A stretch of 64,000 nt of DNA from Skermanella mucosa (lineage in GTDB: Bacteria; Pseudomonadota; Alphaproteobacteria; Azospirillales; Azospirillaceae), in NCBI RefSeq assembly GCF_016765655.2, contig NZ_CP086106.1:3709001-3773000 (forward strand), written 5' to 3'. The notes below the pieces were generated by a model. That model was not told where the DNA came from. It did no database searches and was given only the letters and a program-made list of their open reading frames with translations. The translations under genes were made by a program, and so were the position numbers. How positions within the stretch are numbered: the stretch's first letter is position 1; each line of letters begins with the position of its first letter. Of the stretch, positions 9,974 through 45,878 are shown piece by piece.

Positions 9974-10049
9974 GCCGATCCGATCAGGGTCGGACCGATG
10001 CCATCCATGAAGAAAAGCCATCGAAAACCGTCTCCGAGGGAGGAGCACA

Positions 10050-10601: not shown

Positions 10602-10619
10602 GCGGGAGGGATCGGGATC

Positions 10620-12191: not shown

Positions 12192-12215
12192 CGCCATTAC
12201 GGCGGATGGTCCGGC

Positions 12216-12256
12216 GGGCGCGCGGCCGGGAAAGCCGCGCGCCCTTCCTTTCGTTT
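12216..12256 (+). terminator. Rho-independent terminator after the GMC operon
   Basis: A perfect 11-bp G+C stem (GGGCGCGCGGC at 12216-12226 pairing with 12234-12244) with a 7-base loop is followed by the T-rich run TTCCTTTCGTTTTC. It closes the transcript of the Tat subunit and GMC genes. Confidence 0.9.
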
Positions 12257-12640
12257 TCACCTACCAACGACGGCGATCGCCGGAGCGGCGATTCGCAGGT
12301 CGGCCCCGACCCGCAGGGCCGGTGCCGGCATCATGGGAACGCTGGAGTCCGACATAGGCGTCGCCGCACATGGGGCGGCGGCGCAATTCGACTGTGGGTA
12401 AGTGGTCGCGCGCGCGATATATATGTTGATGCGCATTTGGCGCGAAAAGTGTATAAACCCAGTCGCCGCGTCACCGGCGAATGGAAACTTCGATATTCGA
12501 GCGGTTTCCTCTCGTTCCGGACTCGCAAATTGTTAATAAGGGCTTAATTTGCCCACAATCGAGGTCCATATACGCGGTGCGACACTTGTTGATGCTTGTC
12601 GTGGTTGGAGCCCCCCGTTCTCCCTCTTCAGGAATACCCT
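12257..12640 (+). promoter_or_regulatory. Regulatory region upstream of the second desaturase
   Basis: This 384-bp stretch has no credible gene. It holds an A+T-rich block with ATATATAT at about 12417 and a dyad GCAAATT (12525-12531) / AATTTGC (12546-12552) separated by 14 bases, about 90 bp before the desaturase ATG. The dyad could be an operator or part of the promoter. The desaturase ribosome site is a modest AGGAAT. Confidence 0.4.
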
Positions 12641-13711: not shown

Positions 13712-13730
13712 CGCCGCCCGAGCGGCTGCG

Positions 13731-13755
13731 GGGGAGCGCCGGGCCGGCGCTCCCC
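13731..13755. terminator. Hairpin between convergent genes
   Basis: The 10-bp perfect stem GGGGAGCGCC / GGCGCTCCCC with a 5-base loop lies between the stops of the desaturase (13711) and the RTX beta-helix gene (13776). Neither side has a T tract, so termination strength is uncertain; it could act in both directions. Confidence 0.55.
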
Positions 13756-13775
13756 GATGATGGGCCGTCAGCCGA

Positions 13776-15953
13776 TCAGGCCAGCAGCCACGCCGCCTTG
13801 CCCGGCTGCATCGAGCCGATATCGTTGGACCCGACGCCCATCAGGGTCACCAGTTCGTCCACCTTGCCGTCGTGATGGACCCAGACGGCCACGGCGCCCG
13901 TCCCCTTGGCGACCACCTCGACATCATAGTCCGATCCATGGCCCGACATCAGGGGCCGAAGGTCGAGGATGTCCTGGCCGACCTTGAAGTCCATGATGAC
14001 GTCGCCCTTGTCGCCAAGGTCCTTGAACACGAAGCTGTCGCTTCCGCCGCCGCCGTACAGCTTGTCGGCGCCGCCGCCTCCGATGATGGTGTCCTTGCCG
14101 GCACCACCCTTGATGATATTGGACAGGCCGTTGCCGGTCAGGGCCACGCCGCCCGCCCTGAGCCCGATCAGGTTCTCGACATTGTCCGGCGCCGTGAAGG
14201 AGACGTCCCAGACCTTGACGGTGTCCACGCCCTCGCCCGGCTTCTCGACCACCTTGTCGTAGATGCTTCCAGCCACGTAGGTGTCGTCGCCCTTGCCGCC
14301 CTTCATGACGTCATGGCCGGAGCCGCCGTCGAGCTGTTCGTTCTTGTCGGTTCCGGTCAGGGTATCGGCTTTCGACGTGCCCTTGAGCGAAGCGGTGAAG
14401 CCGGCGCTCTCCCGCCATTGGGCCACGGTGGGCAGCGGTGTCGGTGACGGTCCGGAACCGGCCGGGCTGAACCCGAAATCGTCGGCCGCGAAGGCGGCGA
14501 GCTTGATGTTCAGGAACTTCAGCGTCTGCCCGCCGCCCAGGTCCAGCACGACATCGGCGCCCGACTGCTTCATGGCCGCCTTGACCGCGGCGAAGCTGCT
14601 GAAGGAACTCCCCTCCAGGCGCACGGTGTCGCCGGCGCCGGATCCGGCCTTGAAGTCGGTGATGACGTCGTTGCCCTTGCCCTTGGCGATGACGAAGACG
14701 TCGTTGCCGCCGCCGCCCGTCAGGCGGTCGTTGCCCGCGCCGCCGTCGAGCGCGTCGTTGCCAGCACCTCCCTTGATCACGTTGTCCTTGGCGTTGCCGG
14801 TGACCTTGGAGCCGCCGGCACGCGTCACGTTGGCGTTCTCGACCGACGACGGCATCGTGTAGGAGGCGTCGACCGCGGTCACGGTGTCTACCGGATCGGA
14901 CGGCTTGGGCACCGTGCCGGAGCCGCCCGTGTTGGGACCGGCCTTGCCGTTCCACACGCCGTCGAAGCGGTTGCCGGAAACCTCCAGGCCCTTGCCCTGG
15001 CCGGACTCGACGGTGAGCCACTTGGTCGACCGGTTGATGGTGTTGTCGGTGATCGTGATGTCCGAAGACGGGGTCGCCTTGCCGCCCGTCTTGCCGGCCG
15101 CGACGTTGACGACGGTATAGTATTTGGGATTGCCGGCCAGCAGGTTGCCGGTCGCCGTGCTGTCGACCGCGCCCAGGAAATTGAGCGGGCGCTTGCCCAC
15201 GTCGAAGACCTCGTTGCCGATCGCCACGACGTTCTTCGCTTCGTAATCGCGCATGCCCGGCCGCATCCACTTGGGCGTCGTCCAGCCGCCGATGGAGATG
15301 CCGTCGACATCGACGTCATGGACCCTGTTGTACTCGATCCGGACATTCGTCGAACCGCCCTTGGCGAACAGGCCGGCGACACCGGTGACCTTGGAGATAT
15401 CGTTGCGGGCGATGACGCTGTCGTTGACCGCCACGAAATCGATGCCCTGGTCGCCGGCCCCGATGATGGTGTTGTCCAGGATGTGGATGTTGTCGCCCTG
15501 TGAGATCTTGATGCCGTCCATGCCGGCGCCGCGGATGATGTTGTCCTCGACGACGATGTTCTTGACCATGTCCTTGAAGTCGGTGCCGGCCATGCCGAAC
15601 TGGATGCCGTTCTGCTTGGACTGCGCGGTCACGTCGAAGCCACGCACGACGATGTTCTCCTCGCCGAAACCGGCGATCGTCGCGGTCCCCGCGCTGGCCG
15701 GCTTGATCTTCGCCGCTCCGTTGCCGTCGGCCGAGATCAACCAGATCGGCGCCTTTTCCGTACCGCTGTGCTTGAAGTTGACGTTCTCAACATAGGTACC
15801 GGCCTTCACCATGACGGCCGTTCCGGGGGTCGCCTTGTCCAGTGCGGCCTGGATCGTTTTGAATGGAGAGCCTTCGGATCCGCTGTTGCTGTTGCTGCCC
15901 TTGTTGGAAACCCAAATGGTGCGCTGCGGTGAGATGCTGGAAAACGGCGTCAA
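13776..15953 (-). CDS. RTX-type secreted right-handed parallel beta-helix protein
   Basis: A 725-residue protein. The N-terminal half (about 10-335) is a parallel beta-helix: it opens IWVSNKGSNSNSGSEGSPFK, then TIQAALDKATPGTAV, and repeats short N-x-I/V turns such as VVEDNIIRGAGMDGIK. The C-terminal half has three clusters of calcium-binding nonapeptides, for example GGAGNDALDGGAGNDRL, GGSGHDVMKGGKGDDTY and GGGGADKLYGGGGSDSF. No N-terminal signal is present, as expected for type I secretion. The start is TTG at 15953 with AGAGGA 10 bases before it; no ATG lies ahead of the conserved N-terminus. Likely a secreted polysaccharide-binding or cleaving enzyme. It is paralogous to 16518-17891. Confidence 0.85.
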   Translation of the reverse strand: MTPFSSISPQRTIWVSNKGSNSNSGSEGSPFKTIQAALDKATPGTAVMVKAGTYVENVNFKHSGTEKAPIWLISADGNGAAKIKPASAGTATIAGFGEENIVVRGFDVTAQSKQNGIQFGMAGTDFKDMVKNIVVEDNIIRGAGMDGIKISQGDNIHILDNTIIGAGDQGIDFVAVNDSVIARNDISKVTGVAGLFAKGGSTNVRIEYNRVHDVDVDGISIGGWTTPKWMRPGMRDYEAKNVVAIGNEVFDVGKRPLNFLGAVDSTATGNLLAGNPKYYTVVNVAAGKTGGKATPSSDITITDNTINRSTKWLTVESGQGKGLEVSGNRFDGVWNGKAGPNTGGSGTVPKPSDPVDTVTAVDASYTMPSSVENANVTRAGGSKVTGNAKDNVIKGGAGNDALDGGAGNDRLTGGGGNDVFVIAKGKGNDVITDFKAGSGAGDTVRLEGSSFSSFAAVKAAMKQSGADVVLDLGGGQTLKFLNIKLAAFAADDFGFSPAGSGPSPTPLPTVAQWRESAGFTASLKGTSKADTLTGTDKNEQLDGGSGHDVMKGGKGDDTYVAGSIYDKVVEKPGEGVDTVKVWDVSFTAPDNVENLIGLRAGGVALTGNGLSNIIKGGAGKDTIIGGGGADKLYGGGGSDSFVFKDLGDKGDVIMDFKVGQDILDLRPLMSGHGSDYDVEVVAKGTGAVAVWVHHDGKVDELVTLMGVGSNDIGSMQPGKAAWLLA

Positions 15954-30640: not shown

Positions 30641-31798
30641 TCACTGGGAGGGCTGGGTCGATCCGCTCGCCGGAACGGTCCCGTCGGTATCCGGCTTGGC
30701 GGCCGCACGCAGAACCTCCGCCTGGTTGACCATCTGGTCGCGCAGGAGGCTCAGCTGCCTCTCGGCATCGAGGAAGACGGCCTTCGCCGCCTCGGCCTGT
30801 CGGGTCGCCTCCTGCTGCTGCTGGCGCAGCGCGTTGAGGGCCTGCGACCGCTGGGCCACCTCGTTGCCGATGGCGGCGAGGTTCTGGCTGGCCAGCGAAA
30901 CGGCGCCCTGAAGCTCGGAGATCCGCTGTTCACTCTGCGCGATCTCTGCATTCAGCTCGTCGCGCCGGGCCGTCAGGTTGGCGAGCTGGCCCTCGATCTC
31001 CTTCGCCTGGGCCTCGGTCCTGGCCACCTGGTCCTCAAGCTCCTCCCGGGTACCGATTGCGGATTCCATGGCCGTCATGTCGGCGGCGATCCGGTCCCGC
31101 TCCGCCTGCAGCCTCTCGATGTCCTGCCCGAGTTCGGCGACCTTGGCTTCGGCGGTGTCACGCGCCCAGGCGACGCCGCCGATCTTCTGGACAAGCTCGT
31201 TCCGCTCGCCCAGCAGGGTGGCGCGCAGATCCTCCAGCCGGGCGACCTCGTCGACCAGCGGCATCAGTTCGTCCCGCTGGCTGGTCAGTGCGGCCACACG
31301 CTTCTCGAGCCGCGCGACGTCGGTCTCGCCGACATCGCGCGCCCACGTGACGGCGCCGAGCCTCTGGACGATGCCGTTCCGCTCGTTCAGCATCATCGAC
31401 CGCTCGACCTGGACATCGGCGAGCTCGTCGTTGAGGCTGGCGACCTGGGCGGCCAGTGGCTGCAACTGGTCGCGCTCGCCGGTGACCGTGGCAAGCTGGC
31501 CCTGGGCGGTGGCTAGTTGCCCCTGGGTGCTGGTAAGTTGCGCCTGGGCATCGCCGAGCTGCGACTGAAGACCCGCAACTTCCGCTCTCAGGTTATCCGC
31601 CTGATTGCTGTAGGTGTTGGCCCGGGTCCAGCCGGTCACCGCAAGGATCAGCGCGATGGCCGTAGCACCGCCGAGCAAATAGATCGTTCGCCGATTGACC
31701 CAGCCTGGCTCCCGGCCGACGTTATCGGGACCCTTATCGTGCGTTCCGCTCGGGGCGGCCGTCCCCGTGGGCTCGGCCTCTGTTCCATTGTGAGCCAC
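30641..31798 (-). CDS. Membrane-anchored long coiled-coil protein
   Basis: A 385-residue protein: a disordered N-terminus (1-35), one membrane span (TIYLLGGATAIALILAVTGW, about 39-58), then about 300 residues of heptad-rich coiled coil (for example LQSQLGDAQAQLTSTQGQL). Two near-repeats, VARLEKRVAALTSQRDELMP and VARLEDLRATLLGERNELVQ, are each preceded by GAVTWARDVGET or GGVAWARDTAEA. The topology suggests a periplasmic rod anchored in the inner membrane. No functional domain is recognised. Confidence 0.65.
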   Translation of the reverse strand: MAHNGTEAEPTGTAAPSGTHDKGPDNVGREPGWVNRRTIYLLGGATAIALILAVTGWTRANTYSNQADNLRAEVAGLQSQLGDAQAQLTSTQGQLATAQGQLATVTGERDQLQPLAAQVASLNDELADVQVERSMMLNERNGIVQRLGAVTWARDVGETDVARLEKRVAALTSQRDELMPLVDEVARLEDLRATLLGERNELVQKIGGVAWARDTAEAKVAELGQDIERLQAERDRIAADMTAMESAIGTREELEDQVARTEAQAKEIEGQLANLTARRDELNAEIAQSEQRISELQGAVSLASQNLAAIGNEVAQRSQALNALRQQQQEATRQAEAAKAVFLDAERQLSLLRDQMVNQAEVLRAAAKPDTDGTVPASGSTQPSQ

Positions 31799-32412: not shown

Positions 32413-33642
32413 TCAGAGATCCGGGGCGAGCGGCACGTCGATCGAGCCGTCCAGCATCTTCTTCGGTCCGTCCGAACCGGGATTGATGTCGAACTCGAAC
32501 ACGCCGGTCGGCAGCCACAGGGTGGCGCAGGCGTTGGGAATGTCGACCACGCCGCTGATATGGCCCTGGACCGGTGCCGTGCCGAGGATCGCGTAGGCCT
32601 GGGCGCGGGTGAAGCCGAATTTGGTCAGGTACTCGATCGCGTTCAGGCAGGCTTGGCGATACGCCACATGGACGTCGAGATAATGCTGGACGCCGCCCTC
32701 GTCGACCGAGATCCCCTCGAAGATCAGGTAGTCGTCGTAGGTCGGCTTGATCGGGCTTGGCTTGAAGATCGGGTTCTTGATCCCGAACTTCGCCATGCCG
32801 CCCTTGATCAGTTCGACCTTCAGGTGGATCCAGCCGGCCATCTCGATGGCGCCGCAGAAGGTGATCTCGCCGTCGCCCTGGCTGAAATGCAGGTCGCCCA
32901 TGGACAGGCCCGCCCCCGGCACATAGACCGGGAAGAACACCTTGGCACCGCGCGACAGGTCCTTGATGTCGCAGTTGCCGCCATGCTCGCGCGGCGGCAC
33001 GGTCCGCGCGCCCTCGGCGCCCGCCGCCTTCGCGTCGTCGCCCTTGAGCCTGCCCATATGGGCGGTCGGGCCGTAGGGCAGCGTGGCGAGCGCCGGCACC
33101 CGCTCGGGATTGGTGTCGAACAGCGCCTTCTCGCGGGTGTTCCAGGTCTGGAGCATGTCGCGGGACGGCAGGCAGCCGATCAATCCGGGATGGATCAGGC
33201 CGGGGAAGCGGACTCCCGGCACGTGGCGCGACTTGGTGAACATGCCCTCGAAGTCCCAGATCGACTTCTGGGCCTCGGGGAAATGCTCGGTCAGGAAGCC
33301 GCCGCCGTTGTTCTTCGAGAAGAAGCCGTTGAAGCCCCACTGGCTGGCCGGGAAGGCGCCGATGTCGAGGAAATCGACCACCAGCAGGTCGCCCGGTTCC
33401 GCTCCCTCGACGCCGATCGGACCGGAGAGGAAATGGACCTGGGACAAGTCCACGTCGCGCACGTCGGCGGCGCTGTCGTCGTTCTTGATCTGGCCGCCGG
33501 TCCAGTCGAAGCACTCGACAATGAAGTCGTCGCCTGGCTTGACCGTCGCCACCATCGGGATGTCCGGATGCCAGCGGTTATGGATCATGTCGTTGTCGTA
33601 GGGGGAAGAGCCCAGGTCGATCTTGATGATTGTTTCCGCCAT
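32413..33642 (-). CDS. fmdA: Formamidase (acetamidase/formamidase family)
   Basis: A 409-residue cytosolic amidase that hydrolyses formamide to ammonium and formate. Diagnostic stretches include HNRWHPDIPMVATVKPGDDF, ECFDWTGGQIKNDD, FPGLIHPGLIGCLPS and HFSQGDGEITFCGAIEM, and the length is that of FmdA. It lies 56 bp downstream of urtE in the same direction, so the transporter and amidase probably form one nitrogen-scavenging operon. No urease genes are present here. The transporter may carry formamide or other short amides as well as urea. Confidence 0.93.
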   Translation of the reverse strand: MAETIIKIDLGSSPYDNDMIHNRWHPDIPMVATVKPGDDFIVECFDWTGGQIKNDDSAADVRDVDLSQVHFLSGPIGVEGAEPGDLLVVDFLDIGAFPASQWGFNGFFSKNNGGGFLTEHFPEAQKSIWDFEGMFTKSRHVPGVRFPGLIHPGLIGCLPSRDMLQTWNTREKALFDTNPERVPALATLPYGPTAHMGRLKGDDAKAAGAEGARTVPPREHGGNCDIKDLSRGAKVFFPVYVPGAGLSMGDLHFSQGDGEITFCGAIEMAGWIHLKVELIKGGMAKFGIKNPIFKPSPIKPTYDDYLIFEGISVDEGGVQHYLDVHVAYRQACLNAIEYLTKFGFTRAQAYAILGTAPVQGHISGVVDIPNACATLWLPTGVFEFDINPGSDGPKKMLDGSIDVPLAPDL

Positions 33643-33698: not shown

Positions 33699-34388
33699 TC
33701 AGACCGACAGGTACCGGGCGACCTGCGCCTCGTCGATGCCGGCCCGGGGCTGGTCCTGGACGATGGTGCCGTTCTCCAGCACCAGGACGCGGTCGGCGAT
33801 GTCGAGCGCGAAGCTCAGCACCTGCTCCGACACGACGATGCTCAATCCGCGCTCGTCCCGGATGCGCTTGAGGGTCCGGGCCATGTCGCGGATGATGCTG
33901 GGCTGGATGCCCTCGGTCGGCTCGTCCAGCAGAAGAACCTTGGGACGGCTGGCGAGCGCGCGGGCGATGGCGAGTTGCTGCTGCTGGCCGCCGGACAGGT
34001 TGCCGCCGCGCCGGCCCTTCATCTCCAGCAGGACGGGGAACAGCTCGTAGATGTCGGGCGGGACCCTGGTCTCTCCCGAGACCGTCAGGCCGGTCTCGAT
34101 GTTCTCCTCCACCGTCATGGTCGAGAAGATCATCCGGCCCTGGGGCACGAAGCCGACGCCCTTGGCCACGCGCTGGTGGCTCTTCAGGTGGGTGATGTCG
34201 GCCCCTCCGACCGCGACCGAGCCGCTGCGGGTCGGCACGATCCCCATCAGGGACTTCATCAGCGTGGTCTTGCCCATGCCGTTGCGGCCCATGATCGCGA
34301 CGATCTCGTTCGGAGCGACCGCGAAGTCCAGGCCGTGCAGGACTTCGCTCTGGCCGTAGGCCACGTGCAGGCTGGAGACGTTGAGCAT
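33699..34388 (-). CDS. urtE: Urea ABC transporter ATP-binding protein UrtE
   Basis: A 229-residue LivF-type ATPase. Walker A is GRNGMGKTT, the signature is LSGGQQQQLAIARAL, and Walker B is LLLDEPTEGIQP; the last phrase is typical of UrtE. The ATG at 34388 follows an A/G-rich leader and begins MLNVSSLHVAYGQSEVLHGL; a longer frame to 34442 lies inside urtD. It is the fifth gene of urtABCDE. Confidence 0.92.
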   Translation of the reverse strand: MLNVSSLHVAYGQSEVLHGLDFAVAPNEIVAIMGRNGMGKTTLMKSLMGIVPTRSGSVAVGGADITHLKSHQRVAKGVGFVPQGRMIFSTMTVEENIETGLTVSGETRVPPDIYELFPVLLEMKGRRGGNLSGGQQQQLAIARALASRPKVLLLDEPTEGIQPSIIRDMARTLKRIRDERGLSIVVSEQVLSFALDIADRVLVLENGTIVQDQPRAGIDEAQVARYLSV

Positions 34389-34404
34389 TTTCGGCGTTTC
34401 CCCC

Positions 34405-35151
34405 TTAATGGCCCAGGTAGACTTCGACGACGCGGGGATCATTCTTCACATGGCCCATTGACCCTTCGGACAGGACCTTGCCCTGGTGCAGGACGGTGAC
34501 CCGGTGGGCGATGTCCTCGACGAACTTCATGTCGTGCTCGATCACGATCACCGAGCGGTCCTTGATGATGCGGTTGAGCAGGTCCGCCGTCTTGACCCGC
34601 TCGGCGACGCTCATGCCGGCCACCGGCTCGTCGAGCATCAGGAGCTTGGGGTCCTGGATCAGCAGCATGCCGATCTCCAGCCACTGCTTCTGCCCGTGGC
34701 TGAGATACTCCGCCCGCTGGTCCAGGTGGTCGGCCAGGAAGATGGTCTCCGCGATTTCATCGATGCGGTCGCGCACCGCGGCGTCGCGCTTGAAGGCGAG
34801 CGCACCGAACACGGAATGGCCGCGGGGATAGGAGATCTCCAGGTTCTCGAAGACGCTGAGGTCCTCGTAGATCGAGGGATTCTGGAACTTGCGGCCGATC
34901 CCCTCGGCCACGATCCTGTCCTCGCGCAGGCGGGAAATCTCCTTGCCCTTGAACCTGATCGAGCCGCCGGTGGCGCGGCTCCGGCCGCAGATCAGGTCGA
35001 GCACGGTGGTCTTGCCGGCCCCGTTGGGACCGATGATGACGCGGATCTCGTTCTCCTCCACATAGAAGGACAGGTTCTCGACCGCCTTGAAGCCGTCGAA
35101 CGACACGGTCAGGCCTTCTACCGCGAGGAGGAAGCTGGTCTCGTTCGCCAT
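34405..35151 (-). CDS. urtD: Urea ABC transporter ATP-binding protein UrtD
   Basis: A 248-residue LivG-type ATPase. Walker A is GPNGAGKTT and Walker B is LLMLDEPVAGMS; the signature motif is the UrtD-type LSHGQKQWLEIGM instead of LSGGQ. It pairs with UrtE to power the UrtBC permease. It begins 3 bp after urtC ends. Confidence 0.93.
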   Translation of the reverse strand: MANETSFLLAVEGLTVSFDGFKAVENLSFYVEENEIRVIIGPNGAGKTTVLDLICGRSRATGGSIRFKGKEISRLREDRIVAEGIGRKFQNPSIYEDLSVFENLEISYPRGHSVFGALAFKRDAAVRDRIDEIAETIFLADHLDQRAEYLSHGQKQWLEIGMLLIQDPKLLMLDEPVAGMSVAERVKTADLLNRIIKDRSVIVIEHDMKFVEDIAHRVTVLHQGKVLSEGSMGHVKNDPRVVEVYLGH

Positions 35152-35154
35152 GGT

Positions 35155-36297
35155 TCAGGTCCTCCGCTCGGCAGCGGCGGCGGCAGGCGGGGCGATCGGG
35201 CGGGCACCGGCGCGGGACGCCGCCCAGCGGTCGAACAGCGGCTGGACATGGACCTGCCAGAGCCCGGCAAGGCCGTTCGGGAACGCCATGACGACGCCGA
35301 TGAACAGGGCGCCCATGGCGAACAGCCACAGTTCCGGGAAGCTCTCGGAGAAGATCGTCTTGGCGTAGTTGACGAACAGCGTGCCGTAGACGGCGCCGAA
35401 CAGCGACAGCCGCCCGCCGACCGCGCAATAGATCACCATCTCGATCGACGGCACGATGCCGACGAAGGACGGCGACATGAACCCGACCTGGAGCGTGAAC
35501 ATCGCCCCGCCGACCGCCGCCAGCACCGAGGCGAAGCAGAAGATGAAGATCTTGAAGTTGGAGACGTCGTAGCCGGAGAAGCGGACCCGGTCCTCCTTGT
35601 CGCGGATCGCCACCAGGATGCGGCCGTACTTGGATCGCCGGACGAACTGGGCGGCCAGCAGGCAGCCGAGCAGCAGGGCGACGGTGACGAAGTACAGCAC
35701 CTCCTTCGCGAAGTCGGTGCGGATGTCCCAGCCTTTCAGCGTGCGCAGGTCGGTGATGCCGTTGATGCCGCCGGTATAGCCCTGCTGCCCGATGATCAGG
35801 ATCGTGAGGATGGCGGCGATGGCCTGGGTGATGATCGCGAAATAGACACCGCCGACCCGCCGCTTGAACATCGCGACGCCGATGATCCAGGCGAAGGCAG
35901 CCGGCACCACCAGGATCGCGACGACGGTAAGGGCCAGGCTGTGGAACGGCTGCCAGAAGAAGGGCAGCTCGGTGATCTGGTTCCAGTCCATGAAGTCTGG
36001 GATGCCGGGCGTGGACTGGATCGCCGTCGCCTCCGGGCTGGAGGATTCGAGCTTCAGGAACATCGCCATGCAGTAGCCGCCGAGCCCGAAGAAGATCCCC
36101 TGCCCCAGGCTGAGGATGCCGGCATTGCCCCAGCACAGCACCAGGCCGAGCGCCACGAAGGCGTAGGTCAGGTACTTGCCGACCAAGTTCAGCCGGAAGC
36201 TGTCCAGGGCCATGGGGAAGACGACCAGCAGCAGGGCCGCCAGCAGGACGAGGAAGACGACCTCGTTGCGCCTGAGAAAGATGTTGCCGCTTCTCAT
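35155..36297 (-). CDS. urtC: Urea ABC transporter permease UrtC
   Basis: A 380-residue LivM-type permease with about ten spans. GKYLTYAFVALGLVLCWGNA and GILSLGQGIFFGLGGYCMAM are characteristic of UrtC, as is the QQGYTGGINGITDL loop. It lies 10 bp after urtB. Confidence 0.93.
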   Translation of the reverse strand: MRSGNIFLRRNEVVFLVLLAALLLVVFPMALDSFRLNLVGKYLTYAFVALGLVLCWGNAGILSLGQGIFFGLGGYCMAMFLKLESSSPEATAIQSTPGIPDFMDWNQITELPFFWQPFHSLALTVVAILVVPAAFAWIIGVAMFKRRVGGVYFAIITQAIAAILTILIIGQQGYTGGINGITDLRTLKGWDIRTDFAKEVLYFVTVALLLGCLLAAQFVRRSKYGRILVAIRDKEDRVRFSGYDVSNFKIFIFCFASVLAAVGGAMFTLQVGFMSPSFVGIVPSIEMVIYCAVGGRLSLFGAVYGTLFVNYAKTIFSESFPELWLFAMGALFIGVVMAFPNGLAGLWQVHVQPLFDRWAASRAGARPIAPPAAAAAERRT

Positions 36298-36307
36298 GGA
36301 TGGTCCC

Positions 36308-37234
36308 TCACCGCCTTACCTTGAGGACGAACAGGCCCTGGGGCCGCAGCATGAGAATTCCGACGACCGTCAGCAGCGTCAGCACTTTCGCCATCGAGCC
36401 GCTGAGGAAGAATTCCATGGTGGACTGGGCCTGGGAGATCACGAAGGCCGACGCGATCGTGCCGAGCAGGCTCTGGGCACCGCCGAAAACCACCACCAGG
36501 AAGGTATCGACGATGTAGAGCTGCCCGGAGGTCGGCCCGGTCGATCCGACCATGGTGAAGGCGCTGCCCGCGACCCCGGCGATGCCGCAGCCGATGCCGA
36601 AGGTGTAGCGATCGACCTTCTCGGTATCGATGCCCACCGCGCCGGCCATGACCCGGTTCTGCATGACGGCCCGGACCTGCTTGCCCCAGCGCGAGCGGTA
36701 CATCAGCACGCCGACCGCCGTCGTGATCATCAGGGTCAGCGCCATGACGAACAGGCCGTTGATCGGTACCTCGATAATGTCTGTCACCGGCAGCGAGCCG
36801 ATCAGCCATTCCGGCAGTTCCACGCCGACCTCGCGGGCACCGAAAACCGAGCGGTAGAACTGCTGGAGGATCAGGCTGAGGCCCCAGGTCGCCAGCAGCG
36901 TGTCCAGCGGCCTGCGGTAGAGGTGCCGGATCATCGCCCATTCCACCAGCATGCCGAGCGCCCCCGCCCCGACGAAGGCGAGGGCCATGGCAACGAAGAA
37001 ATAGGCGCTGAAAAGGGCCGGAATGTAGTTGAGGAAGAAGTTCGACGTGAAATAGGTGATGTAGGCCCCGAGGATCAGGAATTCCCCGTGCGCCATGTTG
37101 ATGACGCCCATCTGCCCGAAGATGATCGCGAGCCCGAGGGCCATCAGCACGAAAACGGAAAACAGGATCAGCCCGGCGAACCCCTGCATGGCGAAAATGG
37201 AGCCGAGTTCGGCCAGCGTGTAGCCTTCGAACAT
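36308..37234 (-). CDS. urtB: Urea ABC transporter permease UrtB
   Basis: A 308-residue LivH-type permease with about eight spans. The signature IIFGQMGVINMAHGEFLILG is near residues 40-60, and QNRVMAGAVGIDTEKVDR is the conserved cytoplasmic loop. The ATG at 37234 has an AGGAGAG site; the frame extends a further 33 bases upstream without support. It lies 101 bp after urtA. Confidence 0.93.
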   Translation of the reverse strand: MFEGYTLAELGSIFAMQGFAGLILFSVFVLMALGLAIIFGQMGVINMAHGEFLILGAYITYFTSNFFLNYIPALFSAYFFVAMALAFVGAGALGMLVEWAMIRHLYRRPLDTLLATWGLSLILQQFYRSVFGAREVGVELPEWLIGSLPVTDIIEVPINGLFVMALTLMITTAVGVLMYRSRWGKQVRAVMQNRVMAGAVGIDTEKVDRYTFGIGCGIAGVAGSAFTMVGSTGPTSGQLYIVDTFLVVVFGGAQSLLGTIASAFVISQAQSTMEFFLSGSMAKVLTLLTVVGILMLRPQGLFVLKVRR

Positions 37235-37335
37235 GGATCGCTCTCCTGACGAATGGTGCTCCCGCACGGTCGGAGGGGGCGCGTCCCGCGCACCGGAGGC
37301 GGCGGGGACGCCGCCCCTCCGAACGCGCCTTCAGG

Positions 37336-38622
37336 TCACTGGTAGCCCTTGGGGAAGGGATCCGGCTCCATCAGGTCGGCGGTCTCGTAGATCACCTCGT
37401 ACTGGCCATCGGCCTTGGCCTTGCCGACGCGGGTCTTGCTCCACAGGTGATGGTTCTCGTGGATGCGGACATAGCCTTCGGGGGCCTGCTGGAACTCGAT
37501 GCCGGGTGACGCGGCCGCCACCTTGTCCACGTCGAAGCTGCCGGCCTTCTCCACCGTCAGCTTCCAGAGCCACGGCCCCAGGTAGGCCGCCTGGGTCACG
37601 TCGCCGATGACGATGTTCTCGCCCCACATCTTCTTGAAGGCCTGGACGAAGGCCTTGTTGTTGGGGTTGTCGAGCGACTGGAAATACTTCATGCAGGCAT
37701 AGGCGCCGGCGATGTTCTCGCCGCCGATGCCGAGGATCTCGTCCTCGGTGACCGAGATCGTGACCAGGGTCTGCTTGGACAGGTCGATCCCGGCCGCCTT
37801 CAGCTGCTTGTAGAAGGCGACGTTGGAGCCGCCGACGATGATCGCGTAGATCACGTCGGGCTTGGTCAGCTTGATCTTGTTGATGACCGAGTTGAACTGG
37901 GTATGGCCGAGCGGGAAATACTCCTCGCCCACGACCTTCAGGCTGTTCTTCTCGATGTGCTTGCGGGCGATCTTGTTGGAGGTGCGCGGCCAGATATAGT
38001 CGGACCCCAGCAGGTAGAAGCTCTTGGCCTGCTTCTCCTTCACCACCCAGTCGATGCCGGCGAGGATCTGCTGGGTAGCCTCCTGCCCGGTGTAGATCAC
38101 GTTCTTGGACTGCTCCAGCCCCTCGTAGAAGGTGGGGTAGTAGAGCATGCCGTTGTACTGCTCGAACACCGGCAGCACAGCCTTGCGGGACGCCGAGGTC
38201 CAGCAACCGAACACCGCGGCGGCCTTGTCGTTGACCAGCAGCTTCTTGGCCTTCTCCGCGAAGTTCGGCCAGTCGCTGGCGCCGTCCTCCTGGATGAACT
38301 CGATCTTGCGGCCGAGCACCCCTCCCATCTCGTTGATCTGCGCGATCGCCAGCTTCTCCGCCTGGACCGATCCGGTCTCGCTGATCGCCATGGTGCCGGT
38401 GACGGAGTGAAGGATGCCGACCCGCACTGTGCTGTCGGTCACCGCGAGCCCGGTGGTGTTGACCGCCGAGGTGGCCGGAGCCTGCGCGAAAGCCGCCCTG
38501 GGGAGCAGGCCCGGCAGGAGCGCCGCGGCGGGAAGGGCCGCCATGCCGAGCAGAAGCTTGCGGCGCAGGGCGGACTCGGGGCCATTCAATTGGGGGCTGG
38601 TCGGGGTGTGATCGGAAGACAT
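37336..38622 (-). CDS. urtA: Urea ABC transporter substrate-binding protein UrtA
   Basis: A 428-residue periplasmic binding protein. It starts at the ATG after a full AAGGAGGTTG site and has a Tat-like leader (LRRKLLLGMAALPAAALLPG at about 20-39). The mature protein carries the UrtA wording VRVGILHSVTGTMAISETGS, GGVLGRKIEFIQEDGASDWP, CWTSASRKAVLPVFE and LLGSDYIWPRTSNKIA. It is the first gene of the leftward urt-fmd operon and is divergent from the transporter-kinase fusion gene. Confidence 0.94.
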   Translation of the reverse strand: MSSDHTPTSPQLNGPESALRRKLLLGMAALPAAALLPGLLPRAAFAQAPATSAVNTTGLAVTDSTVRVGILHSVTGTMAISETGSVQAEKLAIAQINEMGGVLGRKIEFIQEDGASDWPNFAEKAKKLLVNDKAAAVFGCWTSASRKAVLPVFEQYNGMLYYPTFYEGLEQSKNVIYTGQEATQQILAGIDWVVKEKQAKSFYLLGSDYIWPRTSNKIARKHIEKNSLKVVGEEYFPLGHTQFNSVINKIKLTKPDVIYAIIVGGSNVAFYKQLKAAGIDLSKQTLVTISVTEDEILGIGGENIAGAYACMKYFQSLDNPNNKAFVQAFKKMWGENIVIGDVTQAAYLGPWLWKLTVEKAGSFDVDKVAAASPGIEFQQAPEGYVRIHENHHLWSKTRVGKAKADGQYEVIYETADLMEPDPFPKGYQ

Positions 38623-38790
38623 GCAACCTCCTTGTGCGTGATCGGCGTCGGGCAGGTGCAAAGGTTCCGGTCGATGCCGCGATGCAGCAATACGGCAATT
38701 GACGTATATGCTAGTATTCAGGGACCGGGCTAACGTGTCCGGCACCCTTCATCGGGGAGCCTTATCAATCTGACGGCGGATCGAGGACGG
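38623..38790. promoter_or_regulatory. Divergent control region between urtA and the transporter-kinase gene
   Basis: This 168-bp gap carries promoters for both directions. TTGACG (38699-38704) is followed by an A+T-rich stretch, TATATGCTAGTATTCA. I looked for a sigma-54 GG-N10-GC element in front of urtA and did not find a good one. The LuxR-type regulator encoded at 42164 is the natural candidate to bind here. Confidence 0.45.
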
Positions 38791-41700
38791 ATGGCGGCGC
38801 TCCAGAAGATCGTCAGGGTCCGGCGCACCTACAATCAGTGGGTCGCCAACCAGACCCTTGAGGACTTCGCGCTGCGCTTCACCGCCAAGGGTGCCCGGCG
38901 CTGGTCGGCGCTGCGGGTCGCCAACACCGCCCTGGGCGCCATCTCCTTCCTGGCGCTGGAGGCGATCGGCGGCACGGTGACGCTGAACTACGGCTTCACC
39001 AACGCGATGGCGGCGATCCTGGCGGTGGGTCTGCTGATCTTCTTCACGGCCCTGCCGATCAGCTACTACGCCGCCCGCTATGGGGTGGACATCGACCTGC
39101 TGACCCGGGGCGCCGGGTTCGGCTATATCGGCTCGACCATCACGTCGCTGATCTATGCCTCCTTCACCTTCATCTTCTTCGCGATCGAGGCCGCGATCAT
39201 GGCGCTGGCGCTGGAGATGGGGTTCGGCATTCCCCTGTCCGCCGGCTACCTGATCAGTTCGCTGGTGGTGATCCCGCTGGTGACCCACGGAATCACCTTC
39301 ATCAGCCGCTTCCAGCTCTGGACCCAGCCGGTCTGGGTGGTGCTGCACGTATTGCCTTTCGTCTTCATCGCGATCCACCATTCCGACGGGCTGGAGGAAT
39401 GGACCGGACATGCCGGGCTGGCGGGAGATCCTGACGGGTCGTTCGACCTGCTGCTGTTCGGGGCGGCTTCGGGCGTGATCTTCGCGCTGATCGCGCAGAT
39501 CGGCGAACAGGTCGATTTCCTGCGCTTCATGCCGGTGAAGCGCCGGAGAAACCGCTTCGTCTGGTGGACCTCCCTGCTGTCGGCGGGACCGGGCTGGATC
39601 GTGCTGGGGGCGATCAAGCTGGCGGCGGGATCGTTCCTGGCCGTCCTGGCGCTCGGCCAGGGGGTTTCGATCGATCACGCGGCGGAGCCGACGCGGATGT
39701 ACCTGATCGCGTTCGGCCACATGTTCTCCAGCGCCGACGTGGCGTTGTTCGTGATGGTGGCCTTCGTCGTCGTGTCGCAGATCAAGATCAACGTCACGAA
39801 CTCCTATGCCGGGTCGATCGCCTGGTCGAACTTCTTCTCCCGGCTGACCCACAGCCATCCGGGACGGGTGATCTGGCTGGTGTTCAACGTCGCGATCGCC
39901 TTCCTGCTGATGGCGGTCGGGATCTACAAGGCGCTGGAGCAGATCCTGGGCCTGTACTCGATCGTCGCGGTGTCCTGGGTGGGCGCTATCGTCGCCGACC
40001 TGCTGATCAACAAGCCGCTGAAGCTGAGTCCGCCGCACATCGAGTTCAAGCGGGCGCACCTGTACGACATCAACCCGGTCGGCGTCGGTGCGATGCTGCT
40101 GGGGGTGCTGGCCTCGGCGCTCGCCTTCACGGGGCTGTTCGGTGTCACAGTGGAGGCGCTGGCACCCTTCGTGGCGCTCGCCGTGCCGTTCGCCGCGGCC
40201 CCGCTGATCGCCTGGGCGACGGGAGGGCGCTATTACATCGCGCGCTCCTCGGCGGGGCTGCTGCCAAGCACCGCGATGACCCGGTGCGTGATCTGCGAGC
40301 ATTCGTTCGAGCGGGAGGACATGGCTTTCTGCCCGGCCTATTCGGGCGCCATCTGCTCCCTGTGCTGCTCGCTCGACGCCCGCTGCGGCGACGTCTGCAA
40401 ACCGCAGTCGCGGATGCCGGAACAGGTGCTGGGGTGGCTCAGGCTGGCCCTGCCGGAGCGGGTGGTCGACCGCATGAATTCCCGCCTGGGCCATTACCTG
40501 AGCCTGCTGGCGCTGTTCGGGCTGATCATCGGCCTGATCCTGACGGTGATCTATCACCAGGCGGTGCTGAACGACGACGCCCACCGCGAGACCATCGCCG
40601 GCATCTTCTGGAACCTGTTCTTCATCCTGATGATCATCACCGGCGTGGCGACCTGGCTGTTCGTGCTGGCCCAGGAAAGCCGCAAGGTCGCGCAGGAGGA
40701 GACCGCGCGCCAGACCAACCTGCTGATGCAGGAGATCGAAGCCCACGAGCGGACCGACGCCGAGCTTCAGAAGGCCAAAGAGGTCGCGGAGGCCGCCAAC
40801 CTCGCCAAGAGCCGCTACGTGGTCGGCATGAGCCACGAGCTGCGCTCCCCGCTGAACGCTATCTTCGGTTACGCGCAACTGCTGGAGGCCGACCAGACCA
40901 TCCCGCCGCGCCGGCGCGACGCCATCAAGGTGATCCGGCGCAGCTCGGAGCACCTGTCGAGCCTGATCGAGGGGCTGCTCGACATCTCGAAGATCGAGGC
41001 CGGGCGGCTGCGGCTGAACCGCGACGAAGTCCATCTGGTGGAGTTCCTGGACCAGATCGTCGACATGTTCAGGCTCCAGGCGACGGCGAAGGGAATAGAG
41101 TTCGTGTTCGACCGGCCGGAAACGCTGCCGCTGGTGGTCTATACCGACGCCAAGCGGCTGCGCCAGATCCTGATCAACCTGCTGTCCAACGCGATCAAGT
41201 TCACGCCCGGCGGCTTCATAGCGCTCCGCATCCGATACCGCAGCCAGGTCGCAGACATCGAGGTGGAGGACAGCGGCATCGGCATCCTGCCCGACGACCT
41301 GGGCCGCATCTTCGAGCCGTTCGAGCGCGGCCGGCTGGCGGGCGCCCGGATGACGCCCGGGACGGGATTGGGCCTGACCATCACCAAGCTGCTGACGGAG
41401 ATCATGGGCGGCGAGATCTCGGTCGGCAGCACCGCCGGCAAGGGCAGCGTCTTCCGCGTCAAGCTGCTGCTGTCGGAGGTGCGGCGGCCGAGCCGGCTGG
41501 CGCCAGTCGCCCTGAAGATCACCGGCTACGCCGGGCCGCGCCGGACGGTGCTGGTCGCCGACGACGATCCGGACCACCGGGAACTGGTGACCGAGATCCT
41601 GGGACCGCTGGGCTTCATCGTCTTCACCGCCACGGACGGCGCGTCCTGCGTGGCGCTGGCCGAGGAGATCCAGCCCGACCTGGTGCTGATGGACATCTCC

Positions 41701-42180
41701 ATGCCCGGGATCAACGGGCGGGACGCCGCCCGGCTGCTGCGCCGGTCCAGCCGTGTCAGCGCCCGGATCGTCATGATCTCCGCCAACGCGGCGGAAGGGC
41801 GGGCGGAACCGGGAGCCGAGGAGGACGGCGGCACCGCCCATGACGGTTACCTGGAGAAGCCGATCACGATCCCGGCGCTGCTCGACACGATCCGGGCCGT
41901 GCTGGGGCTGGACTGGGTGCATGACGCCGCGGTCGAGCCGGTTCAGCCGGCGAGGGCCGGCTTCCCGCCCGGGACGGTGCCGGGGCGCGGACACCTGGAC
42001 GACCTGCGCCAGCTCGGCCGGATCGGCTATGTGCGCGGGATAAAGACCAAGCTCGACGAGATCGAAGTGAGGAGCCCCGAGTGCGGCCCGTTCGTCAGCC
42101 ACATGAAGTCGCTGGTGAACGACCTGGCGCTCGACGATTACATGCGGACCCTGGAGGCGCTCGATGGTCATGCTGGATAG
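38791..42180 (+). CDS. NCS1-transporter / Cys-rich / histidine kinase / receiver fusion sensor
   Basis: A 1129-residue hybrid. Residues 1-480 are a 12-span NCS1 (cytosine/allantoin-type) permease domain, recognisable from LALEAIGGTVTLNYGFTNAM and NVTNSYAGSIAWSNFFSRL. Residues 499-536 hold eight cysteines (CX2C-X11-C-X7-C-X2-CC-X5-C-X3-C). Two more spans (about 568-635) and a coiled coil lead into HisKA (SHELRSPLNAIFGY, His682), HATPase_c (NLLSNAIKFTPGG, GTGLGLTITKLL), a receiver with phospho-acceptor D968 (LVLMDISMPG) and a helical C-terminus (about 1070-1129). It is a membrane sensor whose input domain looks like a transporter, divergent from urtA and overlapping its regulator gene by 17 bp. 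Confidence 0.92.
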   Translation: MAALQKIVRVRRTYNQWVANQTLEDFALRFTAKGARRWSALRVANTALGAISFLALEAIGGTVTLNYGFTNAMAAILAVGLLIFFTALPISYYAARYGVDIDLLTRGAGFGYIGSTITSLIYASFTFIFFAIEAAIMALALEMGFGIPLSAGYLISSLVVIPLVTHGITFISRFQLWTQPVWVVLHVLPFVFIAIHHSDGLEEWTGHAGLAGDPDGSFDLLLFGAASGVIFALIAQIGEQVDFLRFMPVKRRRNRFVWWTSLLSAGPGWIVLGAIKLAAGSFLAVLALGQGVSIDHAAEPTRMYLIAFGHMFSSADVALFVMVAFVVVSQIKINVTNSYAGSIAWSNFFSRLTHSHPGRVIWLVFNVAIAFLLMAVGIYKALEQILGLYSIVAVSWVGAIVADLLINKPLKLSPPHIEFKRAHLYDINPVGVGAMLLGVLASALAFTGLFGVTVEALAPFVALAVPFAAAPLIAWATGGRYYIARSSAGLLPSTAMTRCVICEHSFEREDMAFCPAYSGAICSLCCSLDARCGDVCKPQSRMPEQVLGWLRLALPERVVDRMNSRLGHYLSLLALFGLIIGLILTVIYHQAVLNDDAHRETIAGIFWNLFFILMIITGVATWLFVLAQESRKVAQEETARQTNLLMQEIEAHERTDAELQKAKEVAEAANLAKSRYVVGMSHELRSPLNAIFGYAQLLEADQTIPPRRRDAIKVIRRSSEHLSSLIEGLLDISKIEAGRLRLNRDEVHLVEFLDQIVDMFRLQATAKGIEFVFDRPETLPLVVYTDAKRLRQILINLLSNAIKFTPGGFIALRIRYRSQVADIEVEDSGIGILPDDLGRIFEPFERGRLAGARMTPGTGLGLTITKLLTEIMGGEISVGSTAGKGSVFRVKLLLSEVRRPSRLAPVALKITGYAGPRRTVLVADDDPDHRELVTEILGPLGFIVFTATDGASCVALAEEIQPDLVLMDISMPGINGRDAARLLRRSSRVSARIVMISANAAEGRAEPGAEEDGGTAHDGYLEKPITIPALLDTIRAVLGLDWVHDAAVEPVQPARAGFPPGTVPGRGHLDDLRQLGRIGYVRGIKTKLDEIEVRSPECGPFVSHMKSLVNDLALDDYMRTLEALDGHAG

Positions 42181-43102
42181 GCTGAAGGCACGCGACATCG
42201 TGCTGGTCGTCGATGATTCCCCGGAAACGCTCGGCATGCTGACCGACGCGCTGGAAGAGGCCGAAGTGACCGTGCTGGTGGCGCTGGAAGGCGCCAAGGC
42301 GCTGGCGCTGGTCGACGAGATCACGCCCGACGTGATCCTGATGGACGCGATCATGCCGGGAATGAACGGCTTCGAGACCTGCAAGCGGCTGAAGGACAAG
42401 AAGAACGTGGCCCATGTGCCGGTCATCTTCATGACCGGCCTGACCGAGACCGAGCACATCGTCGCGGGCTTTGAAGCCGGCGGCGTCGATTACGTCACCA
42501 AGCCGATCGTCCCGGACGAGCTGATCGTCCGGATGCACGCCCACTTGGCCAATGCCCGGCTGGCCCAGAGCGCCCGCACCGCGCTGGATGCCACGGGCAG
42601 GTTCCTGCTGGCCGCCAGCAAGGCGGGCGAGGTGCTGTGGTGCACGCCGCAGGCGAGCATCCTGCTGGCCCCGCTGCTGGACGCCGCCGCCGGAGACGGG
42701 GGACGGCTTCCCGTCGCGGTCAGGAACTGGCTGGCCGAGCGTGACCGTTCGGGCTCCGACGGGCGGACGGACGGCGTCGCCGTGACATGCGGCGGCGACG
42801 GACACCAGATCCAGTTCACCTATGTCGGCCGCGCCGGCCCCGACGAGTTCCTGCTGCGGCTGGTCAACAACCGGAGCTGCGCCGAGGAAACCCTGCTGAA
42901 GGAAAGGCTCAGCCTGACCGCGCGTGAGTCGGAGGTGCTGCTGTGGATCGCCCGCGGCAAGTCCAACCGCGACATCAGCGAGATCCTGGGCATGAGCGCC
43001 CGCACGGTGAACAAGCACCTGGAGCAGGTCTACGCAAAGCTGGGCGTGGAGAACCGCGCCTCGGCGGCGGTGATCGCGATTCGGACGGTGGGGCTGGTGT
43101 GA
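42164..43102 (+). CDS. LuxR-type response regulator, partner of the transporter-kinase
   Basis: A 312-residue regulator. Its receiver (about 12-130) has the acidic pair in VVDDS, the phospho-acceptor in VILMDAIMPG and the Lys in YVTKPI. A middle region (about 140-230) of unclear fold follows, and the C-terminal LuxR HTH is at about 245-305 (LTARESEVLLWIARGKSNRD, then MSARTVNKHLEQVYAKLG). Its start lies inside the end of the kinase gene, so the two are translationally coupled. It most likely controls the divergent urt-fmd operon. Confidence 0.92.
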   Translation: MVMLDRLKARDIVLVVDDSPETLGMLTDALEEAEVTVLVALEGAKALALVDEITPDVILMDAIMPGMNGFETCKRLKDKKNVAHVPVIFMTGLTETEHIVAGFEAGGVDYVTKPIVPDELIVRMHAHLANARLAQSARTALDATGRFLLAASKAGEVLWCTPQASILLAPLLDAAAGDGGRLPVAVRNWLAERDRSGSDGRTDGVAVTCGGDGHQIQFTYVGRAGPDEFLLRLVNNRSCAEETLLKERLSLTARESEVLLWIARGKSNRDISEILGMSARTVNKHLEQVYAKLGVENRASAAVIAIRTVGLV

Positions 43103-44408: not shown

Positions 44409-45878
44409 ATGAAGACGTCCGGACGCCGGCTGCCCCTGCCTACCCTGCCCCTGGCCGTGACCCTCTGCGGCTTCGCGCTGAGCTTCCTGTGGCCGATGGT
44501 CCGGTCGCGGCTCGGGCTGGGCATGGACGGCGCGTTCGACGATGCCGTGACGCTGCTGGCCGGGTCCGCCGGATGGTTCGGGCTGGCCTGGTTCGGAACC
44601 CGCGTTGTCGATGGATTGCTGCGGCGGCCGGCAGCGACCGACCGGTCGCCTGCGGCGCCCCGGCTGGTCGGCGATCTGGCGCGCGTCCTGTTCTTCGGGC
44701 TTGCCGGACTGGCGGTCGCCAGTTTCGTGCTTCACCTGCCGGTCACCGGCCTGGTCGCGACGTCGGGCGTGGTCATCGCGGTCATGGGCTTCGCGCTGCG
44801 CAACATCCTGTCCGACATCTTCTCGGGCATTGCCATCAATGTCGAACATCCCTACCGGATCGGCGACTGGATCCAGGTGGGAACGGCCTCCGGCGGACCC
44901 GGGGCGACGGGCAAGGTGGTCGAGGTCAACTGGCGCTCGACCCGGCTGCTGACGACGGACGGGACCACCGTCATCCTGCCCAACGGCCTGATCGCCGGCA
45001 GCCGCTTCGTCAATTTCAGCCTGCCGGAACCCTCCTACCGGGCATCGCTGCGGGTCCACCTGGACCCCGCGGTGCCGGTCAGGCGGGCGCGCCGGGTGCT
45101 GATGTCCGCCCTGCTGTCGGTCGACCACCTGCTGGCCGAGGGGCAGTCGGACGTGGTGGTGGAGAGCGTCGGGGACGCCGGCGTCTGCTACCTGCTGCGC
45201 TTCCGGGTGCCCGACCACGGCGCGGAGGTGGCCTGCCGCGACGCGGTGGCCGCCGCCGTGCTGAAGGCGCTGCGCGACGCCGGCCTGCCGGTTTCGGCAC
45301 CGCGCCGGAGCCTGATCCCCCAGGGCCGCGCCGGCCGCGACCTGGAAGGCATGGACATCTGCCGCCGTATGCTGGGCGCGATTCCCCTCTTCCAGGCTTT
45401 CACGACGGCCGAACTGGACGCGCTGGCGAGTCGGATGAAGCGCCGGCAGTTCGCGGCCGGCGCCGTCGTGGTCAACCAGGGCGACCAGGGATCCTCTCTC
45501 TTCCTGATAACCGAGGGGCTGCTGGAAGTCCGGGGCACCGTCATGGGAGTGGACGGGTCGCGGCCGGTCGTGCTGGACCGCATGGCGCCAGGAGCCATCT
45601 TCGGCGAGATGGCGCTGCTGACCGGCGAGCCGCGTAGCGCCACGGTGGCGGCATTGACCGACGCGGTCGTCTACGAGCTGGCCGGCGAGCAACTGCGCCC
45701 GCTGCTGCACGACCGCGCCGAACTGGCAGAGAGGCTTTCGGAGCTGATGGCGGAACGGGCGGAACACAATGCCGAGAAACGCGCGACCGCGTTGCGCCCG
45801 ATGCCGATGCCGCCGGTCCCCCACCGGCGGGACCTGCTGGACCGGCTGCGGGACTTCTTCGGACTTCCGGCGCCATGA
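44409..45878 (+). CDS. MscS-type channel with C-terminal cyclic-nucleotide-binding domain
   Basis: A 489-residue inner-membrane protein. Four spans (about 12-30, 42-62, 92-112 and 115-140) end in the MscS pore helix and beta domain: VIAVMGFALRNILSDIFSGI, then AINVEHPYRIGDWIQVG and NWRSTRLLTTDGTTVILPNG. The C-terminal cNMP domain (about 325-440) has the phosphate-binding cassette wording FGEMALLTGEPRSATVAAL. Channels of the MscS/bCNG class can lose mechanosensitivity and be gated by nucleotide. It lies between the two small repeat genes. Confidence 0.92.
   Translation: MKTSGRRLPLPTLPLAVTLCGFALSFLWPMVRSRLGLGMDGAFDDAVTLLAGSAGWFGLAWFGTRVVDGLLRRPAATDRSPAAPRLVGDLARVLFFGLAGLAVASFVLHLPVTGLVATSGVVIAVMGFALRNILSDIFSGIAINVEHPYRIGDWIQVGTASGGPGATGKVVEVNWRSTRLLTTDGTTVILPNGLIAGSRFVNFSLPEPSYRASLRVHLDPAVPVRRARRVLMSALLSVDHLLAEGQSDVVVESVGDAGVCYLLRFRVPDHGAEVACRDAVAAAVLKALRDAGLPVSAPRRSLIPQGRAGRDLEGMDICRRMLGAIPLFQAFTTAELDALASRMKRRQFAAGAVVVNQGDQGSSLFLITEGLLEVRGTVMGVDGSRPVVLDRMAPGAIFGEMALLTGEPRSATVAALTDAVVYELAGEQLRPLLHDRAELAERLSELMAERAEHNAEKRATALRPMPMPPVPHRRDLLDRLRDFFGLPAP

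Follow-up and report, generated by a model that had tools for sequence, protein, structure and literature searches.

A hybrid histidine kinase with an NCS1-like membrane domain beside the urt-fmd operon of Skermanella mucosa: a candidate sensor of short-chain amides

What does a transporter-like membrane domain do when it is fused to a histidine kinase and encoded back to back with the operon of a different transporter? This question is raised by a stretch of 64,000 nucleotides from Skermanella mucosa (NCBI RefSeq assembly GCF_016765655.2, contig NZ_CP086106.1, positions 3,709,001 to 3,773,000 of the forward strand; hereafter the window), in which the gene of a hybrid histidine kinase with an NCS1-like membrane domain is followed by a LuxR-type regulator gene and lies divergent from urtABCDE-fmdAB, encoding a Urt-type ABC transporter and a formamidase. 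Analysis of the locus and its relatives suggested that the kinase-regulator pair very probably regulates the urt-fmd operon, a reading based on synteny, co-occurrence and the placement of a candidate operator, from which the direction of control is inferred. With moderate confidence, we further propose that the pair is a dedicated two-component system sensing short-chain amides (formamide, acetamide), and possibly urea, for uptake and hydrolysis.

The kinase gene is intact. An earlier note, made from the letters of the window, had described one 1129-residue frame joining an NCS1-type membrane part to HisKA, HATPase and receiver domains, and the open reading frame and its Pfam matches bear this out (HisKA at residues 673–738, HATPase_c at 786–894, Response_reg at 920–1034), with the H, N, G1 and G2 boxes present as expected of a hybrid histidine kinase. 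The same note had named a frameshift or assembly join between the permease and kinase parts as what would undo its reading; this is ruled out by copies in the same genus and by further relatives. Three of the four other genomes of the genus carry the kinase at 90–97% identity in open frames of 1148–1180 amino acids (aa), and the fourth gave no match. For the wider comparison, we assembled 89 loci from the best 80 of at least 579 relatives of the N-terminal part in the genome collection and nine hand-picked from 40 listed plasmid matches, which makes the sample a biased one. A single frame of 1105–1181 aa, counted from the start of the match, was present in 85 of these 89 relatives, including one that runs off its contig (L102). 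Among the four exceptions, L065 is cut by a contig end, L066 and L057 have early stops, and L072, a Rhodoblastus metagenome-assembled genome (MAG), has no stop within 1250 aa: kinase and regulator read there as one frame of 1551 aa (9644–14299), which may be an artefact because the stretch contains undetermined bases. The window genome shows one copy of the NCS1-like sensor domain.

Profile comparisons and a predicted structure indicated that the membrane domain is a remote relative of NCS1 transporters outside the Pfam family. Its direct assignment by Pfam was not supported: Pfam returned nothing for the first 603 residues at E up to 10, and at the same threshold PF02133 matches neither the kinase protein nor 10 homologues, which returned four irrelevant families, each in one or two members. 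PF02133 searches of five kinase-bearing genomes (G000, G014, G055, G061 and G064) listed other genes and never the kinase; in the window genome (G000) they found a true NCS1 permease elsewhere. A PDB profile search with the N-terminal 603 residues gave nothing at E up to 10, and one of the 10 homologues matched the NCBIfam cytosine permease (E 2.2e-8). Profile-profile comparison, which covered NCS1 and SSS among the APC families, gave an hhalign probability of 95.9 for an alignment of 63 relatives against five NCS1 sequences, rising to 97.1 once Mhp1 was added (local alignment). A rough SSS alignment, built from long hydrophobic frames (at most 560 residues), gave a probability of 1.1, and NCS1 against SSS reached 27.6 in the same test. 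An SSS/SLC5 origin of the domain is not supported by this value; PF00474 (SLC5/SSF) matched neither the kinase nor the 10 homologues and hit other places in the window genome, and the Pfam Amt domain gave no match in the kinase protein. In the AlphaFold model of residues 1–645 (pLDDT 83.2, pTM 0.84), a fold search placed chains of CodB (TM-score by target 0.73–0.75) and Mhp1 (0.66–0.67) as the five best PDB matches, so that NCS1 structures are the nearest to this LeuT-type fold. The kinship proposed in the earlier note, that of an NCS1 nucleobase/allantoin-type permease, thus stands as to profile and fold, but the domain is better described as a remote NCS1 relative than as a plain allantoin or nucleobase permease, because PF02133 fails to recognise it.

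Alignment of 72 sequences revealed invariant residues within this domain (E57, E133, Q236, E239, D242, K276, K332, N334 and N337). In the profile alignment, K332 falls on Mhp1 S312, or on T313 if a one-residue gap is shifted, and no hydroxyl residue stands there; in Mhp1, the side chains of S312 and T313 are ligands at the Na2 site. We read this as a possible loss of a sodium site, with the helix alignment uncertain by one residue. N337 aligns with Mhp1 N318, and the positions of Mhp1 Trp220 and Gln42, which we take to be relevant to the substrate site, are occupied by L233 and by F53 (or S52). Na+ is not used by all NCS1 members. Mean conservation among 10 full-length sequences was 0.74 in the transporter domain, 0.82 in HisKA and 0.74 in HATPase.

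Between the NCS1-like domain and the kinase, the protein contains a domain with eight cysteines (C499, C502, C514, C522, C525, C526, C532 and C536) that are invariant in all 72 sequences; this domain, the second transmembrane (TM) pair and the conserved palindrome described below had not been reported in the earlier note. With a conservation of 0.79, it is among the best conserved parts of the protein. Its profile matched only the NCS1-like kinase family at E < 0.1, in 12 of 15 genomes chosen by hand, with three other hits at E 0.13–0.68, and no Pfam model exceeds the cut-off for it. Identification as a known zinc finger was rejected: Prok-RING_1 appeared in two of 13 members (best E 0.018) and zf_Tbcl_Rhp7 in one (E 0.008), all below the cut-off. 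PDB matches were mainly C2H2 fingers, covering 13–16 positions with a best E of 0.00097. The domain is probably cytoplasmic and zinc-binding. It is followed by the second membrane hairpin, whose predicted helices run on into the kinase.

Comparison of the gene neighbourhoods revealed a conserved linkage. In the window, the kinase stands divergent from urtABCDE-fmdAB and is coupled to a LuxR regulator, as first described: all five UrtABCDE subunits exceed their NCBIfam cut-offs on the opposite strand, and the regulator gene, with receiver and GerE domains, overlaps the kinase stop. Among 86 assessable loci (three more are cut off), 81 have a divergent urtA next to the kinase; UrtA reaches ≥60% identity in 74 of them and belongs to a second urt type at 36–40% in seven. 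The regulator lies directly downstream of the kinase in 86 of 87 assessable relatives; the one exception is L057, where the kinase frame is broken and a regulator occurs further on. FmdA is encoded upstream in 65 of 78 assessable loci and AmiE in 29 of 89. Judging by record titles, the relatives span alpha-, beta- and gammaproteobacteria, including Rhizobiales, Burkholderiales and several gammaproteobacterial groups. A lack of urt association in other genomes, which would have spoken against the initial reading, was therefore not seen, and the family reaches well beyond Rhodospirillales, the order in which the earlier note had proposed to map the neighbours. In a less biased sample of the class (289 genomes), the kinase was present in 22 and FmdA in 16, with both in 14 versus about 1.2 expected if independent. 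The two genes are 5–7 kb apart in 10 of these 14 genomes and on different contigs in three, and G226 is too fragmented for the distance to be judged. Eight class genomes have the kinase without FmdA, and six of them were viewed (all but G015 and G309): G223, G320 and G021 have divergent type-B urt genes, G241 and G264 a nearby non-divergent urtA-like gene, and G014 none.

The second urt type, or type B, replaces the formamidase-linked operon beside the kinase in L013, L015, L016, L084, L086, L100 and L102. Type B is clustered on a tree of 72 rows, where none of 500 shuffles came out as low, and the absence of an adjacent urtA is hardly so (41 of 500); the tree labels suggest that the partner operon has been switched more than once. 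Two Azospirillum loci, one Tistrella locus and one genome of the same family (L012, L014, L098 and L148) have kinase and regulator, and no urt genes turned up in their vicinity. A close palindrome is lacking as well in L012, L098 and L148. The Pseudomonas/Stutzerimonas loci L075, L079, L091 and L067 encode regulators of 219–235 aa, compared with 312 aa in the window, with a middle stretch apparently missing.

An inverted-repeat count upstream of the kinase genes brought out the palindrome TACGTCA-NN-TGACGTA. In the window, 68 bp separate the palindrome from the likely urtA start (38622) and 84 bp from the kinase start. Of 88 upstream stretches, each no longer than 700 bp, 57 contain the pattern TACGYMANNTKRCGTA with at most one mismatch, compared with 0.15 expected from mononucleotide shuffles. 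Within 500 bp upstream of the kinase, it occurs at this stringency in 56 of 87 loci; counted by genus-level group (named from record titles, some MAGs having no genus), the figure is 30 of 51. Twelve control windows taken from the same loci gave 0–1 each. Since these loci also supplied the pattern, the upstream count does not amount to an independent test; the control windows are a fair comparison, and their two single matches are, by position, the urtA sites of L016 and L062. Eleven further sites with at most one mismatch were found in the 89 loci, eight at 71–160 bp before the fmdA match and three before urtA (L016, L042 and L062), those of L016 and L062 counting as such only with the likely inner urtA start, since the longest frame covers the site. 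The placement makes the palindrome a candidate binding site of the regulator. The FmdA loci of two class genomes without the kinase have no site within two mismatches (n = 2; the genes are divergent, and one locus has no nearby urt).

We propose a mechanism in which the NCS1-derived domain would bind a small amide within the membrane, and the signal would then reach the kinase via the cytoplasmic eight-cysteine domain and the TM hairpin. Phosphorylated by way of the kinase, the LuxR-type regulator would bind the TACGTCA-NN-TGACGTA site located between urtA and the kinase gene and, in relatives, a site ahead of fmdA as well. The bound regulator would turn on urtABCDE-fmdAB. Judging from the operon, an amide or urea is a likely ligand of the NCS1-like domain. 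The formamidase in the same operon suggests amides as the Urt substrate. According to the argument of PMC3098086, an amide, possibly acetamide or formamide, and not urea is what the fmdA/amiE-linked urt cluster transports in B. japonicum. Pseudomonas veronii Yu15, as PMC13209695 reports, has a chromosomal amiE-fmdAB-urtABCDE locus without amiC/amiR in addition to a plasmid amidase operon, and grows on acetamide and formamide. A hybrid kinase and a LuxR regulator are named beside a second urt operon in PMC13296017, the accessible part of which does not discuss the sensor.

Several observations weigh against this reading. In the fold search, other APC-type families, including an SLC5 sialic acid symporter (E 3.1e-6), rank after CodB and Mhp1. 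Pfam found no Hpt domain, and the phosphotransfer route is presumed. Five of the 86 loci have no adjacent urtA (L012, L014, L089, L097 and L098), with some urt genes elsewhere in L089 and L097, and the seven relatives beside the second urt type imply that urea could be the ligand or that the ligand could differ between relatives. Of 87 loci, 31 lack a palindrome within one mismatch, and the copy in the window has one mismatch. In the three class genomes with urt-fmd on a contig other than that of the kinase, no site was found within one mismatch; two have a two-mismatch site and the third has none. A scan of the window genome gave four sites at one mismatch versus 17 in the reversed control, so the palindrome alone defines no regulon there. 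A genome-wide regulon was accordingly rejected for this genome: of the four sites only that of the window adjoins urt, and the surroundings of the other three resemble mobile-element or unrelated genes (translations read by eye, with no family search).

Alternative functions of the membrane domain were weighed against amide sensing. The domain might be an active transceptor that also imports its ligand, with flux or occupancy setting the kinase. The whole transporter domain is strongly conserved (the mean of 0.74 given above) and its predicted fold matches entire transporters; in CbrA, as PMC13022988 reports, the SLC5 domain takes up histidine and acts in this way. We nevertheless regard such transport as less likely, since an ABC transporter for the presumed substrate adjoins the kinase, and the invariant Lys332 at the Na2 positions of Mhp1 would disfavour Na+-driven transport, allowing for the one-residue uncertainty and leaving H+ coupling unaffected. 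The complete conservation of the cysteines, together with nos or pseudoazurin genes in two of seven annotated neighbourhoods, would also fit an eight-cysteine domain that is the true sensor (of metal, redox state or NO), the NCS1-like part being mainly an anchor or second input. This appears improbable: the invariant charged and polar residues in predicted membrane helices (E57, E133, K276, K332 and N337) exceed the needs of an anchor, and the recurring neighbours are amide genes.

Breakdown of classical NCS1 ligands can yield urea or amides, and with CodB and Mhp1 as the nearest folds, the kinase could instead sense cytosine, allantoin or hydantoin, with the urt operon as one target downstream. 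We give this little credence, because Trp220 and Gln42 of Mhp1 align with other residues and nucleobase or hydantoin genes recur in none of the seven annotated neighbourhoods; xanthine dehydrogenase family genes lie near one non-urt locus. About equally doubtful is a trigger by substrate-loaded UrtA touching the outer face, rather than by free ligand. The tight synteny with urtA would be explained, but the relatives lacking an adjacent urtA argue against it, and the helix pattern of the model appears to leave no space for a large periplasmic docking domain.

Comparison with known systems places the kinase among transporter-fused histidine kinases, to which it adds a different transporter lineage and linker. 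CrbS/R has a LuxR-type regulator. The SLC5/STAC kinases (CbrA, CrbS and RpuS) likewise fuse an APC-fold transporter domain to a histidine kinase, but theirs is an SLC5 domain and that of the window kinase is NCS1-like, as the hhalign values indicate. At the place of STAC, the window kinase has the eight-cysteine domain and TM pair, a linker without Pfam match above the cut-off. RpuS/R is reported to control a dedicated symporter, and PMC13022988 describes CbrA as one of the rare fusions of transporter and kinase. Ks-Amt5 is likewise a nitrogen-compound transporter turned kinase sensor, with a fold different from the NCS1-like domain; in PMC5764959, it is described as trimeric, as having lost transport, and as ending with DHp and CA domains without PAS, HAMP or STAC linkers, its regulator being not known. 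From CodB and Mhp1, its best fold matches and profile relatives, the domain differs in giving no PF02133 match, in the Lys that falls in the Na2 region and in the kinase fusion.

AmiC/AmiR and FmdDEF serve the control or transport of short-chain amides and are encoded with amidase genes. AmiC is a soluble binding protein and AmiR an antiterminator, unlike the membrane kinase and DNA-binding regulator of the window. A literature search of titles and abstract starts, with subscription journals mostly outside its coverage, returned no study of an NCS1-type kinase and none on this kinase family. We tentatively suggest a widespread, undescribed receptor class in which an NCS1-lineage amide or urea receptor, with an invariant Lys for the Na2 region, is combined with a new eight-cysteine metal-binding coupler and a dedicated operator code for urtA and fmdA. 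Relatives of the sensor domain are encoded in at least 579 genome stretches, and yet it has no Pfam model. With it, the conversion of a transporter fold into a receptor could be tested in a second APC-type lineage that has another linker; it would also explain the control of the formamidase-linked urt operon, with the palindrome as an immediate reporter for ligand finding.

Table 1. Coordinates of the kinase, its domains and the neighbouring genes in the window
Feature	Position	Strand	Basis
Hybrid histidine kinase with NCS1-like membrane sensor	38791..42180	+	1129 aa, no internal stop; open reading frame and Pfam
NCS1-like transporter domain, residues ~1–480	38791..40230	+	Profile-profile comparison, AlphaFold model, fold search
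Eight-cysteine domain, residues 497–545	40279..40425	+	Alignment of relatives
Second membrane hairpin and linker helix, residues ~565–644	40483..40722	+	Predicted helices 565–594 and 596–644 (AlphaFold); hydrophobic stretches read by eye
HisKA (His682) and HATPase_c	40807..41472	+	Pfam; conserved motifs
Receiver domain, residues 920–1034	41548..41892	+	Pfam; receiver Asp/Lys motifs present
Palindrome TACGGCAATTGACGTA, candidate operator of the two divergent transcripts	38691..38706	.	Inverted-repeat count and pattern scans
LuxR/NarL-type response regulator	42164..43102	+	Receiver and GerE HTH (Pfam); starts before kinase stop; 312 aa
urtA	37336..38622	-	TIGR03407, 550.6 bits vs cut-off 492.75; likely ATG at 38622 behind GGAGG (read by eye)
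urtB (short form)	36308..37267	-	Above NCBIfam cut-off
urtC	35155..36297	-	Above NCBIfam cut-off
urtD	34405..35151	-	Above NCBIfam cut-off
urtE	33699..34442	-	Above NCBIfam cut-off; longest frame, true start may be later
fmdA, formamidase	32413..33642	-	NF045496, 764.2 bits vs cut-off 500
fmdB, Zn-ribbon protein, 118 aa	32045..32401	-	Start read from sequence

Beyond these features, a scan of 38560–38860 for Sigma-70 promoters and terminators found nothing, nor did Rfam within the window. Close behind fmdB, positions 30641–31798 on the minus strand encode a protein of 385 aa that is rich in coiled-coil-like sequence, has a hydrophobic segment close to the N-terminus and gave Pfam matches below the cut-off only. 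Positions 44409–45878 on the plus strand encode an MscS-type channel with a C-terminal cyclic-nucleotide-binding domain. Elsewhere in the window genome there is one urease match, as well as a second urtABCDE operon of type B with a long UrtB (G000:C1:1830900-1836700, L150), 55–73% identical to a Shinella operon. About 3 kb from this operon, on the other strand, lies a sequence that resembles the window protein in its kinase part only, at 31% identity.

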